NCBI GenBank assembly: GCA_031266175.1 | Contig: JAISBN010000099.1 | Coordinates: 1 to 43,835, forward strand | Length of the DNA: 43,835 nucleotides | Reading direction: 5' to 3' | Source of the DNA: Treponema sp. | GTDB taxonomy: Bacteria > Spirochaetota > Spirochaetia > Treponematales > Breznakiellaceae | In this document: positions 39,263 to 43,835 of the stretch, one piece after another | How the letters are laid out: every line of letters starts with the position of its first letter | Position numbering within the stretch: the first letter of the stretch is position 1 | Notes under the pieces: model-generated | The model's input: the letters and a program-made list of their open reading frames with translations, nothing else | Database searches by the model: none | Told to the model about the DNA's origin: nothing | Position numbers and translations under genes: made by a program

Positions 39263-40414
39263 TTACCCCACCGCCGCCCGAAACAGGGCGGCGATTTCCG
39301 CCTGGGTGGGCTGTATATAGGTATTGGCGGCGTTTTTCATGGGCAGCGCGCCCCATTCGGCAAGTTCCGCTTCGGCCGCCCGTTCCCGGGTTCCCAAAAG
39401 CCGTTCTATGATGTCAAAGAACCGTTCCAGGTCCATCCCCAGGGCTTTTATCAGGGCGGGGATCCGGGGCTTTATGGAAGGATCGGCCCTTTCCCTGTTC
39501 AGGCACAGGGTAAGAAAGGGCTTCATGAGAAGGCCGTTGGCCCTGCCGTGATCCGTGCCCCAGTTAAGGGTAAACTGGTAACCCATGGAGTGGGGAACCG
39601 CCGTACCGGACTGGGCAATTGCCATCCCCGCTAGGGTTGATGCAAGGAGCAGCTTTTCCCTGATTTCCGGGGAAACTTCTGAAGGACTGCCGGGGAATGT
39701 GAGCAGCGGGTCAAAACAATCCCCCATGAGGGCAATGCTCTCTTTTGCCAGCATATCGCTTATACCGTTAGCCCGCAGGCACAGGAACCCTTCCACCGCG
39801 TGGGACAGGGCGTCCAGGGCGGTATGGACCGTAATGTTCCGGCTTAGGTTTTTCATGTACTGGGCGTCGAGAAAAGCGCAACGGGGAAAGAGCAGGGGCG
39901 AGCCCATGGAACGCTTTGCCGGCCCCCCCGGATGGGGCGTTTTCCCGTCGGGGCCGGTGGTATCCACCAGAACCGAATACTGGGTTACCTCCGAGCCCGT
40001 ACCGGCGGTGGTGGGTACCGCCGCAATGGGGAGGGCTGCGGTAAATTGCAGGTTAAACATTTCTTCCTTGGAAATATCGTTCACCGCCAGGACTGCCGCG
40101 GCCTTGGCGGCGTCCATGGGGGAGCCGCCGCCGATGGCCAGCATAAAGTCGCAGCCTTCGGACTTTGCCAGTTTTCCGGCTTCAAACACACAGGTATCCG
40201 TGGGGTTGTTCATTACCCCGTCGTAGAGGACATGTCCCTGGCCGTTGGCCTCCAGTGCTTCCACCACGTCGTCATAAGCGCCGTTTGCTTTGGCGGAGTG
40301 TTTCCCCGTAATAACGCAGGCTTTTTTACCCAGCCGGGCCAGAAATAAACGCTGCCCAAGGAGACAATTTTCGCCCATCAGGAGACGGGTGGGCATCAGG
40401 TAGTTAAGTTTCAT
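39263..40414 (-). CDS. Iron-containing alcohol dehydrogenase
   Basis: A protein of 383 residues of the group III (Fe-ADH) family. It has the NAD(P)-binding loop GGGSPMDAAKA at about 95, the VPTTAGTGSEVT motif near 136, and the metal ligands: Asp and His in TALDALSHAVEG near 198, then His in AVPHSMGYQF and DHGRANG near 266 and 280. It oxidises or reduces small alcohols/aldehydes, e.g. the last step of ethanol or butanol formation in fermentation; substrate is not determined. The start at 40414 has GGAGG only 4 bases upstream, partly within an inverted repeat. It is a separate unit next to the operon. Confidence 0.92.
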   Translation of the reverse strand: MKLNYLMPTRLLMGENCLLGQRLFLARLGKKACVITGKHSAKANGAYDDVVEALEANGQGHVLYDGVMNNPTDTCVFEAGKLAKSEGCDFMLAIGGGSPMDAAKAAAVLAVNDISKEEMFNLQFTAALPIAAVPTTAGTGSEVTQYSVLVDTTGPDGKTPHPGGPAKRSMGSPLLFPRCAFLDAQYMKNLSRNITVHTALDALSHAVEGFLCLRANGISDMLAKESIALMGDCFDPLLTFPGSPSEVSPEIREKLLLASTLAGMAIAQSGTAVPHSMGYQFTLNWGTDHGRANGLLMKPFLTLCLNRERADPSIKPRIPALIKALGMDLERFFDIIERLLGTRERAAEAELAEWGALPMKNAANTYIQPTQAEIAALFRAAVG

Positions 40415-40420
40415 GGAACC

Positions 40421-40467
40421 TCCGCCTTACCAGTGTATCAGCATTGTTGCGCGTGTGAAAAGGCGGA
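40421..40467 (-). promoter_or_regulatory. Inverted repeat that could mask the dehydrogenase ribosome site
   Basis: On the minus strand the arm at 40467-40460 (TCCGCCTT) can pair with AAGGCGGA at 40428-40421. The second arm runs into the GGAGG of the alcohol dehydrogenase ribosome site. The loop is 31 bases, so the structure is modest. Confidence 0.35.
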
Positions 40468-40481
40468 ACAGCCTTTGGGGA

Positions 40482-40802
40482 TTAGTCGTTTTCGTGCTTA
40501 TCAACCAGCGCTTTAACCAGTACCGCCACTACTTTACGATCTTTCTCTGTTAATTTAAATAAGTTCCGGTTTATTGAACGGATATCGCCGGGGAGTAATA
40601 CTTCCTTACCGGTTACCAGATACTCCACAGTTACTCCCAGCGTCCGGGCAATCTGAACAGCTATATCTGCCGAAGGGATAGATGCCTTTTCGCGTAAATA
40701 CGTATCAAGCGCCCTTTTAGGTACGCCGGATCTTGCGGCAAGCTCTTTTACCAACATACCGTTAAAACTTAACTCTTCTTTTAGGTTTGTCCGGAAACTC
40801 AT
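40482..40802 (-). CDS. XRE-family helix-turn-helix repressor
   Basis: A protein of about 106 residues. An XRE/Cro-type DNA-binding domain occupies residues about 5-65: the recognition part reads LVKELAARSGVPKRALDTYL and SADIAVQIARTLGVTVEYLV. The remaining 40 residues (INRNLFKLTEKDRKVVAVLV) look like a dimerisation helix. It resembles phage-type repressors. Start is ATG 40802; a TTG three codons upstream is possible. There is no clear ribosome site. It is divergent from the gtr-like operon with 113 bases between starts, and that gap holds paired half-sites, so it probably represses both itself and the operon. AT-rich compared with the chromosome around it. Confidence 0.85.
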   Translation of the reverse strand: MSFRTNLKEELSFNGMLVKELAARSGVPKRALDTYLREKASIPSADIAVQIARTLGVTVEYLVTGKEVLLPGDIRSINRNLFKLTEKDRKVVAVLVKALVDKHEND

Positions 40803-40813
40803 GGTTTTCAAAA

Positions 40814-40864
40814 ATTACACAAATATCCGTAATATTCCCTTGACAAAACTAATATATGTGTAAT
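40814..40864. promoter_or_regulatory. Inverted 13-base half-sites, likely repressor operator
   Basis: ATTACACAAATAT at 40814-40826 is matched in inverted form by ATATATGTGTAAT at 40852-40864 (12 of 13 positions). The centres are 38 bases apart, between which the rightward -35 element TTGACA lies. The left half-site is 12 bases from the repressor start and contains a minus-strand TGTAAT that could be its own -10. A further AATAT/ATATT pair (40822-40826, 40832-40836) lies between. Repressor bound at both would cover both promoters. Confidence 0.6.
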
Positions 40865-40867
40865 ACT
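40840..40867 (+). promoter_or_regulatory. Promoter of the gtr-like operon
   Basis: TTGACA (40840-40845), 16-base spacer, AATACT (40862-40867). The -10 overlaps the right half-site. Transcription from about 40874 would leave a leader of about 40 bases ending in GAGGGAAAAGG. Confidence 0.5.
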
Positions 40868-40915
40868 AATGTAAAATTTAGTGATATTTTAGTATCTGAG
40901 GGAAAAGGTTTGTTT

Positions 40916-41854
40916 ATGGTCAAAAATGTTTTGTCCCTCGTTATACCGTGCTATAACGAACAGGAATCCATCCCTGTTTTTTACCGGGAAACCTGTGCGG
41001 TTTTAGAAATGCTGGAACAAAAAAACCTCGGTGCGGAATTTATTTTTGTCGATGACGGCTCAAATGATGATACGGCGAATATCATTATAAATCTTAGCAG
41101 AAACGATGGGCGTATTTTTTATATGATTTTTTCCCGGAATTTTGGAAAAGAGGCGGCCCTTCTTGCGGGGTTACAAAAATCCCGGGGACAATTTGTAGTT
41201 ACCATTGACGCGGATTTACAGGATCCCCCTTCCCTTATTCCCCAGATGCTTGATCCGGTTATTTCCGGTGAATTTGACTGCGCCGGAACAAGGCGTGTAA
41301 CACGGGCAGGGGAACCGCCGGTACGTTCTTTTTTTGCCCGCCGGTTTTACCGGATCATGGATGTTGTGGCGGATATAAAAATTGTAGACGGGGCCAGAGA
41401 TTTCAGGCTCATGAACCGCGCGTATGTCAATGCGGTTTTGTCGTTATCGGAACGAAACAGATTTTCAAAAGGTATCCTGCCATGGATCGGCTTCAAAACA
41501 AAATGGCTGGAATATGAAAATATTCAACGGACCGTGGGAAAAACAAAGTGGTCGTTTTGGGATTTGCTGTTCTATTCGTTCAACGGAATTATTGCGTTTT
41601 CCACAAAACCCCTGGCGGCAGCTTCTGTGGCGGGTATATTGCTGTTTGTTCTGTCCATAGCATTTATCGTGTTTATTGTTGTCCGCCGTCTTGTCTGGAA
41701 TGATCCTGTGACGGGCTGGGCATCAACGGCCTGCATCATTTTATTCTGCGCCGGAATACAGCTTTTTACAACAGGTATTGTAGGCGCCTATCTTGCAAAA
41801 ACTTATACAGAGGTAAAGCAGCGCCCCCATTATTTGGTCCGGGAAGAAAACTAA
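40916..41854 (+). CDS. GtrB-like polyprenyl-phosphate glycosyltransferase (GT2)
   Basis: A protein of 312 residues. The GT-A fold is marked by LVIPCYNEQESIPVFY, EFIFVDDGSNDDTANI, the metal-binding DADLQDPPSLIPQM, and DGARDFRLMNRAYV; two membrane helices lie at the C-terminus (about 230-290). This is the GtrB/DPM1 family: it loads a sugar from a nucleotide donor onto undecaprenyl phosphate at the inner face of the membrane. Sugar identity is unknown. Start 40916 is chosen because AAGG lies 7 bases upstream and the domain begins there; an upstream ATG at 40856 lies in the operator. The stop overlaps the next start by one base (TAATG). AT-rich codon use. Confidence 0.9.
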   Translation: MVKNVLSLVIPCYNEQESIPVFYRETCAVLEMLEQKNLGAEFIFVDDGSNDDTANIIINLSRNDGRIFYMIFSRNFGKEAALLAGLQKSRGQFVVTIDADLQDPPSLIPQMLDPVISGEFDCAGTRRVTRAGEPPVRSFFARRFYRIMDVVADIKIVDGARDFRLMNRAYVNAVLSLSERNRFSKGILPWIGFKTKWLEYENIQRTVGKTKWSFWDLLFYSFNGIIAFSTKPLAAASVAGILLFVLSIAFIVFIVVRRLVWNDPVTGWASTACIILFCAGIQLFTTGIVGAYLAKTYTEVKQRPHYLVREEN

Positions 41855-42255
41855 TGATCGACAAAATTTTGGGGAAATTTGTTTTGGTTGGCCTGATAAA
41901 CACTTTAACAGGGGCGCTTATCATGTTTGGTTTATACAATCTTGCGGGATTCAACTATTGGATCTCGTCGGCGGCAAACTATTTTCTAACAAGCATTTTA
42001 AGCTTTTTTCTAAACAAGCATTTTACTTTTCAGTACAAAGGGTGGTCAATTTTTTTGGCTGCGGCATTTGTGGTAAACATCGCCCTGTCATATTTGCTGG
42101 CCTATGGTATAGCAAAACCCATGATGTACCGCGCCTTAATGAACCAGGGACAAAAAATCAGGGATAATTTTTCGCTCGTTACCGGCATGTGCCTGTTTAC
42201 CGGGTTTAACTATGTGGGACAGAGGCAGATTGTCTTTCGAGGGAGGGGAAAATGA
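41854..42255 (+). CDS. GtrA-like flippase/membrane protein
   Basis: A protein of 133 residues with four predicted membrane helices (FVLVGLINTLTGALIMFGLY, ISSAANYFLTSILSFFLNKH, FFLAAAFVVNIALSYLLAYG-type, FSLVTGMCLFTGFNYVGQRQ). The KFVLVGLINTLTGALIM start and SFFLNKHFTF are the GtrA (PF04138) signature. GtrA proteins are thought to flip the lipid-linked sugar made by GtrB to the outer face. Start and stop both overlap the neighbours (TAATG; 4 bases with the next gene), so the three genes are translated as a coupled set. Confidence 0.88.
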   Translation: MIDKILGKFVLVGLINTLTGALIMFGLYNLAGFNYWISSAANYFLTSILSFFLNKHFTFQYKGWSIFLAAAFVVNIALSYLLAYGIAKPMMYRALMNQGQKIRDNFSLVTGMCLFTGFNYVGQRQIVFRGRGK

Positions 42256-43634
42256 AAATATCCGATAGGAATTACAATTTCTTGCGGTTTTTAAAAATCC
42301 GGCTTTTGATGATAGTCTCTGTATGTACGATACTTTTATTCCTGGTATTAAACATATTTACCCCGCTAATTGCCGATGACTACAGCTATTCGCTGGGGAT
42401 ACAATCCGTATATGACATTCTTGTCTCCCAATATAACCAGTACTTTACATGGGGAGGAAGATGTGTCGCGCATTTTCTGGCTCAATTTTGGCTTCTTCTG
42501 GGAAAGCCCGTTTTCAATGCTGCCAACACGGTCGTCTATGTTTTTTTTATTTCCTTATTACAGTTTCACATAACCGGGAAAATAAAAATTAACCCCGCCG
42601 TATTCTTACTCATCAATATTTTTTTCTGGTTTCTTGTTCCGGCCTGGGGACAGAATTTTTTATGGCTTGATGGAAGTTGCAATTATTTGTGGACCACGGC
42701 GATAATTTTACTTTTCCTTGTACCCTTCAGGAAAAGGCAGGACAACAGCGGTTTTAACCTGCCTATGCCGTTATTATTCCCGTTTTTTCTTCTGGGCATA
42801 CTGGCAGGGTGGGGTAACGAAAATTCGGGCGCCGCTGTGTTGTTCCTGCTTATTGCATATTTTGCCGTAAAAATTGTTAAAAGGAAGCGGATTGTAGTAT
42901 TTGAAGTCCTGGGAGCCATAGGGTTTTTAATTGGGTTTTCACTGCTCATTGCCGCTCCGGGAAATTATATCCGCCTGGGAGTGATTAACAGCCGGCTGGA
43001 AGCAGTTGGTTCTATGGTAACACTAACGCGGGAACCTTTTATAAAAAGGCTCTTGGAACGGTTTTTTGATATCACCTTATTGTACTATAAAAATAAAGGA
43101 TTTGCGGTTATAGCTGTTTCGCTCTTTTTTGGTTTTGATCTGGTATACCATCAGAAACGCAGGCTTCATGCATTTGTATATTTCTATGCCCTTGCCGCTG
43201 TAGCGGCTTGTTATTCCATGTTAGCCAGTCCCAGTTTTCCAGATCGCGCCTTTTTGTCTGTGGTTGTTTTTTCCGCTATAACTTTAGGGAGTATTCTACT
43301 TCAGGTGGAAATACCTGAAATAATCAAGCGAAACGTGGTTATCTTTATTTTTCTTGCGTTAGCCGGAGTTTCTTTTTCGGTCTTAACAGCAGGTAAAAAT
43401 ATTATGGGCATATATTTGAAATGGCAAAACCGTAAAGAATATATCCTTTCAGAAAAAGAAAAGGGAAATCTGGACATTACGGTAAAGGCGCCAATCCCCG
43501 CAAGGGATAGGCATGCCGCTTTATATGGGTTAGCAGATATACTGGATGATAAAGATCTCTGGCCAAACACCTCTGTTGCACAGTACTTTGGTTTACGCTC
43601 CATCCAGGGACTGGATACCGGCGATCCCTGGTAA
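42252..43634 (+). CDS. Polytopic membrane protein, DUF6056-like; probable sugar transferase
   Basis: A protein of 460 residues with about 10-11 membrane helices. After the first helix it has a conserved-looking loop: FTPLIADDYSYSLGIQSVYD followed by YNQYFTWGGRCVAHFLAQFW. The acidic ADDY motif just after the first helix resembles the catalytic region of GT-C-type, lipid-linked glycosyltransferases, as in phage GtrC proteins. Such proteins move the sugar from the lipid carrier to a surface glycan at the periplasmic face. The DUF6056 label is from memory of the ADDYSY motif and must be checked. It ends three bases before the deoC stop codon on the other strand. Confidence 0.72.
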   Translation: MKISDRNYNFLRFLKIRLLMIVSVCTILLFLVLNIFTPLIADDYSYSLGIQSVYDILVSQYNQYFTWGGRCVAHFLAQFWLLLGKPVFNAANTVVYVFFISLLQFHITGKIKINPAVFLLINIFFWFLVPAWGQNFLWLDGSCNYLWTTAIILLFLVPFRKRQDNSGFNLPMPLLFPFFLLGILAGWGNENSGAAVLFLLIAYFAVKIVKRKRIVVFEVLGAIGFLIGFSLLIAAPGNYIRLGVINSRLEAVGSMVTLTREPFIKRLLERFFDITLLYYKNKGFAVIAVSLFFGFDLVYHQKRRLHAFVYFYALAAVAACYSMLASPSFPDRAFLSVVVFSAITLGSILLQVEIPEIIKRNVVIFIFLALAGVSFSVLTAGKNIMGIYLKWQNRKEYILSEKEKGNLDITVKAPIPARDRHAALYGLADILDDKDLWPNTSVAQYFGLRSIQGLDTGDPW

Positions 43635-43637
43635 AGA

Positions 43638-43835
43638 TTACCCCGCAAGCGCCGGTTCCAGCGCTTCCCCGGCTACGGCGATGGTGGCGGACATGCCGAT
43701 GCGGTCCGCTCCGGCGCCGAGGAGTTCCAGGGTCCGTTCCAGGGTTTTTACTCCCCCGTCTATTTTTATGCCCACCTTGCCGCCCACAATGTCCCGGACA
43801 AACCGGACATCCGCTTCTTCCGCCTTCTTTCCGGT
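43638..43835 (-). CDS. deoC: Deoxyribose-phosphate aldolase, C-terminal part
   Basis: Sixty-five residues and the stop are in the window; the rest lies beyond the right edge. The sequence TGKKAEEADVRFVRDIVGGK then VGIKIDGGVKTLERTLELLG and GADRIGMSATIAV is the TIM-barrel end of DeoC. The Schiff-base-related Lys lies in VGIKIDGG, and the phosphate-binding GADRIGMS replaces the common GATRIGAS. DeoC splits 2-deoxyribose 5-phosphate into acetaldehyde and glyceraldehyde 3-phosphate. It might share the acetaldehyde path with the alcohol dehydrogenase at 39263, but they are not adjacent in operon. The AT-rich island ends right at its 3' end. Confidence 0.85.
   Translation of the reverse strand, partial: TGKKAEEADVRFVRDIVGGKVGIKIDGGVKTLERTLELLGAGADRIGMSATIAVAGEALEPALAG

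Follow-up and report, generated by a model that had tools for sequence, protein, structure and literature searches.

A putative gtr-type surface-glycosylation cassette with an XRE-family regulator on a Treponema chromosome

The 43,835 nucleotides of contig JAISBN010000099.1 (Treponema sp., assembly GCA_031266175.1), hereafter the window, carry near their right end a block of four genes. Most probably this block is a chromosomal gtr-type surface-glycosylation cassette, gained horizontally, repressed by its own XRE (Cro/CI-type) regulator and directed at an acceptor other than lipopolysaccharide (LPS). The regulator gene lies on the minus strand (40482–40802), and three overlapping plus-strand genes diverge from it: gtrB (40916–41854), gtrA (41854–42255) and a gene in the gtrC position (42252–43634). 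Overlaps of 1 nt between gtrB and gtrA and of 4 nt between gtrA and the third gene mark a contiguous operon in the order B-A-C. An earlier sequence-only reading had placed an XRE gene, a GtrB-like GT2, a GtrA and a third membrane-protein gene here, and each is borne out by a profile match (HTH_3, phrog_841, PF04138 and PF19528, respectively). What that reading missed is that the regulator, the more novel part of the locus, belongs to a lineage-specific paralogous family found mostly beside envelope genes, and that the genome holds a second cassette.

Judged by the families involved, GtrB would transfer a sugar, with glucose as the default for the GtrB subfamily, from a nucleotide-sugar to undecaprenyl phosphate on the cytoplasmic side of the membrane. 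GtrA would flip the loaded lipid across, and the DUF6056 protein, a presumed GT-C enzyme, would move the sugar to a surface glycan outside. The XRE protein most likely binds a dyad that separates its start codon from the gtr promoter, and would repress expression in both directions.

The transferase genes and their acceptor

The gtrB product (312 amino acids) is a predicted polyprenyl-phosphate glycosyltransferase, with a GT2 domain and two C-terminal transmembrane (TM) helices. It matches phrog_841 (GtrB-like) with an E value of 1e-99 and aligns nearly full length with Synechocystis GtrB (5ekp, E 8e-69), the DADLQD and DFRLM motifs falling in register, so that the DxD and DFRLM motifs and the TM pair of a GtrB are all present. 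Work on the Synechocystis enzyme, which makes undecaprenyl-phosphate glucose, places D94 and D96 in the active site and proposes D157 as the catalytic acid (PMC4728340). The start codon is most likely the ATG at 40916 rather than that at 40856, because the latter falls within the promoter and GtrB profile matches start at about residue 25 of the long open reading frame (ORF). GtrA is a small GtrA/DPMS-type membrane protein, a putative polyprenyl-phosphate-sugar flippase, with a match to PF04138 above cutoff (E 9e-16).

The third protein (460 amino acids) is a member of DUF6056 (PF19528, E 9e-114), the family to which gene 20 (gtrC) of Salmonella phage epsilon34 also belongs (E 4e-67); the phage protein is 26% identical to that of the window across 92% of its length. 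The epsilon34 genome paper (PMC2629481) assigns genes 20–22 to the serotype conversion caused by that phage. A GtrB gene stands directly upstream of the DUF6056 relative in all 13 viral contigs carrying one. Sequence search of the window protein against the PDB gave no match and a fold search was therefore made with its AlphaFold model (pLDDT 89, pTM 0.89). The first eleven PDB matches were STT3 oligosaccharyltransferase entries and the next related ones were AftB and AftA (E 6e-3 to 0.7, probability 1.00–0.51, TM-score about 0.4). In GT-C enzymes catalytic acids follow immediately on the first helix; in the DUF6056 protein D42 and D43 are invariant straight after its first helix (residues 5–35), and the multi-TM fold with conserved acidic residues in this position is that of the GT-C superfamily. 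Because it shares a family with epsilon34 GtrC, resembles GT-C folds in its model and retains D42 and D43, the third gene very probably encodes a transferase. This agrees with the GT-C-like character proposed for it earlier and makes DUF6056 a likely family of GT-C glycosyltransferases. Elsewhere, two GtrB genes precede a run of six or more tandem DUF6056 genes in an Acidaminococcaceae metagenome-assembled genome (MAG; L021:2178–10807), and a DUF6056 relative in L028 (G047:C138) has two in-frame stop codons within the matched frame, possibly marking a decaying copy.

With regard to the acceptor, LpxC was found in none of the 20 relatives searched, 9 good genomes included, while the E. coli control was detected, and the O-antigen ligase/polymerase domain Wzy_C was above cutoff in a single one of the 20. 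On these two grounds the acceptor is probably something other than O-antigen, as the sequence-only reading had anticipated. The apparent lack of lipid A synthesis and of the O-antigen ligase makes an outer-sheath glycolipid or polysaccharide of non-LPS type the most likely acceptor, with a glycoprotein or lipoprotein as second choice.

It is unlikely, though far from negligible, that the sugar goes to proteins (lipoproteins, flagellar sheath, adhesins), as with Pgf of Streptococcus mutans, and not to a glycan or glycolipid. A further match of the GT2, at E 6e-89 but short of the curated cutoff, is to PgfS, which together with two multi-TM proteins modifies surface adhesins (PMC5856776); the missing lipid A pathway and the tendency of the XRE family to adjoin lipoprotein and other envelope genes would fit as well. 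However, the match to the GtrB phrog is stronger than that to PgfS, DUF6056 contains a phage gtrC linked to O-antigen conversion (PMC2629481), and other XRE-linked genes encode MBOAT acyltransferases, which are usual in polysaccharide modification. A surface glycan or glycolipid thus remains the preferred target.

The divergent regulator and its candidate operator

The XRE protein (106 amino acids) matches HTH_3 (PF01381) above cutoff (E 8e-7). Its ORF is readable from TTG 40811, and the ATG at 40802 is the most likely start because proteins of the family begin with MGF or MSF. The predicted gtr promoter (40840–40867, plus strand) combines a −35 box TTGACA (40840–40845) with a −10 box AATACT (40862–40867) over a spacer of 16 nt containing TG, 10 of the 12 consensus bases being present. 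A candidate operator, the palindrome ATTAC-ACAAATATCC-GTAAT (40814–40833), lies upstream of the −35 box, with 16.5 nt between its centre and the box. A putative second half-site, ATATATGTGTAAT (40852–40864; core TGTGTAAT at 40857–40864), is an inverted copy of 40814–40826, complementary at 12 of 13 positions (inverted repeat I1), and overlaps the −10 box. An HTH_3 protein with a predicted dyad operator between divergent promoters is the layout of an XRE/Cro-CI autoregulator.

Of 99 related genomes, 38 have homologues of the regulator, one of them (G041) holding 20 copies and another 10; homologues also extend to other spirochaete families. About 70 loci of the family (L194–L273) were retrieved for comparison of promoters and operators. 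At 35 of 70 loci a TTGAC box is found inside a single stretch of 12 nt upstream of the XRE gene, against 0.8% in shuffled sequence, and in 34 of the 40 loci having such a box nearby its place stays within five positions. Across the family the box has a palindrome on its upstream side, with the centre 16.5 nt away. Pairing there reaches 0.474, against a maximum of 0.404 when 50 shuffled sets are scanned at every position. After exclusion of near-duplicates and the window, 36 related loci gave 0.495 against 0.285 (standard deviation 0.031), a value reached in 0 of 1000 dinucleotide shuffles; this second test used a centre picked on the same data, a choice for which the all-position test allows. 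The window dyad shares exactly the family centre. By itself it is not significant (p 0.08), and a simple palindrome search locus by locus gave no significance for single loci, the position-fixed family test alone being significant. The dedicated regulator and operator proposed by the sequence-only reading thus find comparative support in a predicted palindrome of fixed position. The operator sequence varies between subgroups, with ATTAC/GTAAT, TACGA/TCGTA, TATGA/TCATA, TATCC/GGATA and TATGC/GCATA types, and members with the same recognition-helix triplet share operator words more often (permutation p 0.0005, relatedness not corrected for).

Of 40 divergent genes, 31 encode a predicted envelope protein, compared with 101 of 231 other genes of the same stretches (p 6e-5), as called by a crude hydrophobicity/lipobox rule and not SignalP. 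These genes include lipoproteins, several MBOAT acyltransferases and, in three loci (the window, L006 and L265), a GT2. Serotype conversion classically proceeds by one of two reactions, gtr-dependent glucosylation or O-acetylation, which makes the presence of both gtr and MBOAT genes beside one regulator family suggestive. Genes of MBOAT/AlgI type diverge from XRE members in L231, L238, L243, L244 and L242, the last with an upstream DUF1574-like gene followed by the MBOAT-like gene. At L233:4574–5857 a caspase-domain (PF00656) protein with a signal-like N-terminus diverges from an XRE member, and some of the 20 copies in G041 have no recognisable divergent gene. Tentatively, the XRE paralogues may have multiplied, dispersed and diverged in operator specificity, each insulated from the rest and in charge of a single envelope unit, be it a lipoprotein, a gtr cassette or an MBOAT acyltransferase, which would amount to combinatorial surface control in LPS-less gut spirochaetes.

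That the XRE gene is an autoregulated passenger without control of the gtr genes, or else their activator, is improbable. Similar XRE proteins do adjoin many unrelated genes, some loci lack a divergent gene and the XRE gene is missing at most GtrB loci; yet operator and divergent-promoter TTGAC box keep a fixed geometry in canonical loci, and the second half-site of the window shares positions with the gtr −10 box. Repression of the gtr genes is the favoured sign of regulation, and would not in itself make a switch. The on/off control of surface chemistry suggested by the sequence-only reading is not upheld, as a lone autoregulated repressor alone gives no bistability and a Dam/OxyR signature is absent, with no GATC within 40803–40915.

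The second cassette lies on another contig of the same genome (C113 of G000; L133:8318–11188). There, an XRE gene other than that of the window stands back to back with a gene for a GT2-GtrA fusion; next comes a membrane protein of 442 amino acids for which no Pfam match was found. Two near-identical palindromes, GTCTAATAGAC and GTCTATCAGAC, flank its TTGACA promoter, and its guanine-plus-cytosine (GC) content is 0.35–0.43 where surrounding genes mostly have 0.53–0.60. Because this cassette and that of the window each carry their own, different XRE gene, gtr-like cassettes of one genome have been joined to different regulators on at least two occasions.

Distribution and origin

DUF6056 relatives are patchily distributed, occurring in 6 of the 99 related genomes, and the block is not conserved at the same place in relatives. 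The order GtrB-GtrA-DUF6056 is found in the window, L005 and L006, the last of these, from Treponema, having the same XRE-GtrB-GtrA-DUF6056 arrangement with a TTGACA promoter and a dyad. In L215 the GtrB-GtrA pair is followed by a GtrII-family gene (PF14264, E 3e-38) and in L218 it is accompanied by other membrane proteins; the GtrB of such related pairs is about 60–70% identical to that of the window. By sequence comparison, GtrB-GtrA is a constant pair with a variable GT-C partner (DUF6056 or GtrII), as in phage gtr operons. Because this pair has different GT-C partners in relatives and the XRE family sits beside envelope genes, the cassette was probably gained horizontally. The foreign base composition remarked on earlier is also evident, with a GC content of 0.423 in the cassette against a mean of 0.581 (standard deviation 0.026, minimum 0.532) in equal-sized stretches elsewhere in the window, and GC at third codon positions of 0.43–0.52 in its genes against 0.59–0.70 in neighbouring ones.

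The cassette is bounded on the left by a chromosomal iron-containing alcohol dehydrogenase (39263–40414, minus strand; PF00465) and on the right by the 3' end of a DeoC-type aldolase (43638–43835, minus strand) cut by the contig end, both outside the cassette. No direct repeats of at least 7 nt were found at its edges, and searches of the site for tRNAs and known RNA families gave nothing. A genome of the same genus (G001, a MAG 68% complete) has the alcohol dehydrogenase as a 93% identical orthologue and is without the cassette, but an empty-site comparison was rejected since both neighbours of the dehydrogenase differ there, leaving no clean insertion boundary. The deoC gene is about 80% identical to that of G006 (L126:9113–10706), and because the latter adjoins microcompartment shell genes (PF00936) the window may border a microcompartment operon.

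Descent of the block from a decayed prophage, as a phage moron with the XRE protein as phage repressor, is very unlikely, for although gtr genes with CI-like repressors are typical of phages and the block is low in GC, no tRNA or recognisable phage gene was seen in a non-exhaustive scan of the window, the flanks are flagellar and metabolic genes, and the XRE homologues retrieved adjoin envelope and housekeeping genes and not obvious prophages.

Several points weigh against a self-regulated gtr cassette. The gene order differs from the A-B-C of phages, which is usual but not essential, and the regulator is no obligatory partner, being present only in the window and L006 among about 17 close GtrB loci. 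Besides the lysogenic-conversion assignment in epsilon34, we know of no biochemical data for any DUF6056 protein. The envelope enrichment depends on the crude rule given above, and the host genome is a MAG of 84% completeness in which the right junction lies 200 bp from the contig end.

A literature search found no paper on gtr cassettes in treponemes. The locus places a phage serotype-conversion toolkit (GtrA, GtrB and a variable GtrC) in spirochaetes apparently without LPS, which turns the acceptor into a testable question. As the XRE family mostly adjoins cell-surface genes in related spirochaetes, the cassette appears to be one part of a wider scheme of surface control. The family offers a first handle on the control of surface composition in termite-gut spirochaetes, and its members are a ready-made collection of related regulators with differing operators.

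Comparison with known systems

Divergent repressors of Cro/CI type, such as RstR and phage CI, resemble the XRE protein of the window in being small HTH_3 proteins with a divergent promoter and a dyad operator. The match to RstR is weak (39.7 bits, cutoff 80), and the window regulator differs in being chromosomal, paralogous and of a family mostly beside envelope genes, with operators that vary between members. The Pgf operon of S. mutans likewise contains a related GT2 (PgfS) with multi-TM partners, but it is Gram-positive, has an epimerase, modifies adhesins and has no GtrA mentioned (PMC5856776).

Among phage systems, gtrABC of epsilon34, whose GtrC belongs to GtrC family VIII (PMC3688519), also encodes GtrA, GtrB and a GtrC of DUF6056 in a single compact operon and similarly lacks a Dam/OxyR phase-variation signature. 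It differs in its A-B-C order, phage genome, O-antigen target and want of a dedicated divergent XRE regulator. The serotype-conversion operons of Shigella and Salmonella (GtrII, GtrV, P22) have an LPS acceptor, other GtrC families and, in many cases, OxyR/Dam control. They nevertheless share with the window a constant GtrA/GtrB joined to an exchangeable multi-TM transferase, a parallel extended by the relative of the window GtrB-GtrA pair that precedes a GtrII-family gene.

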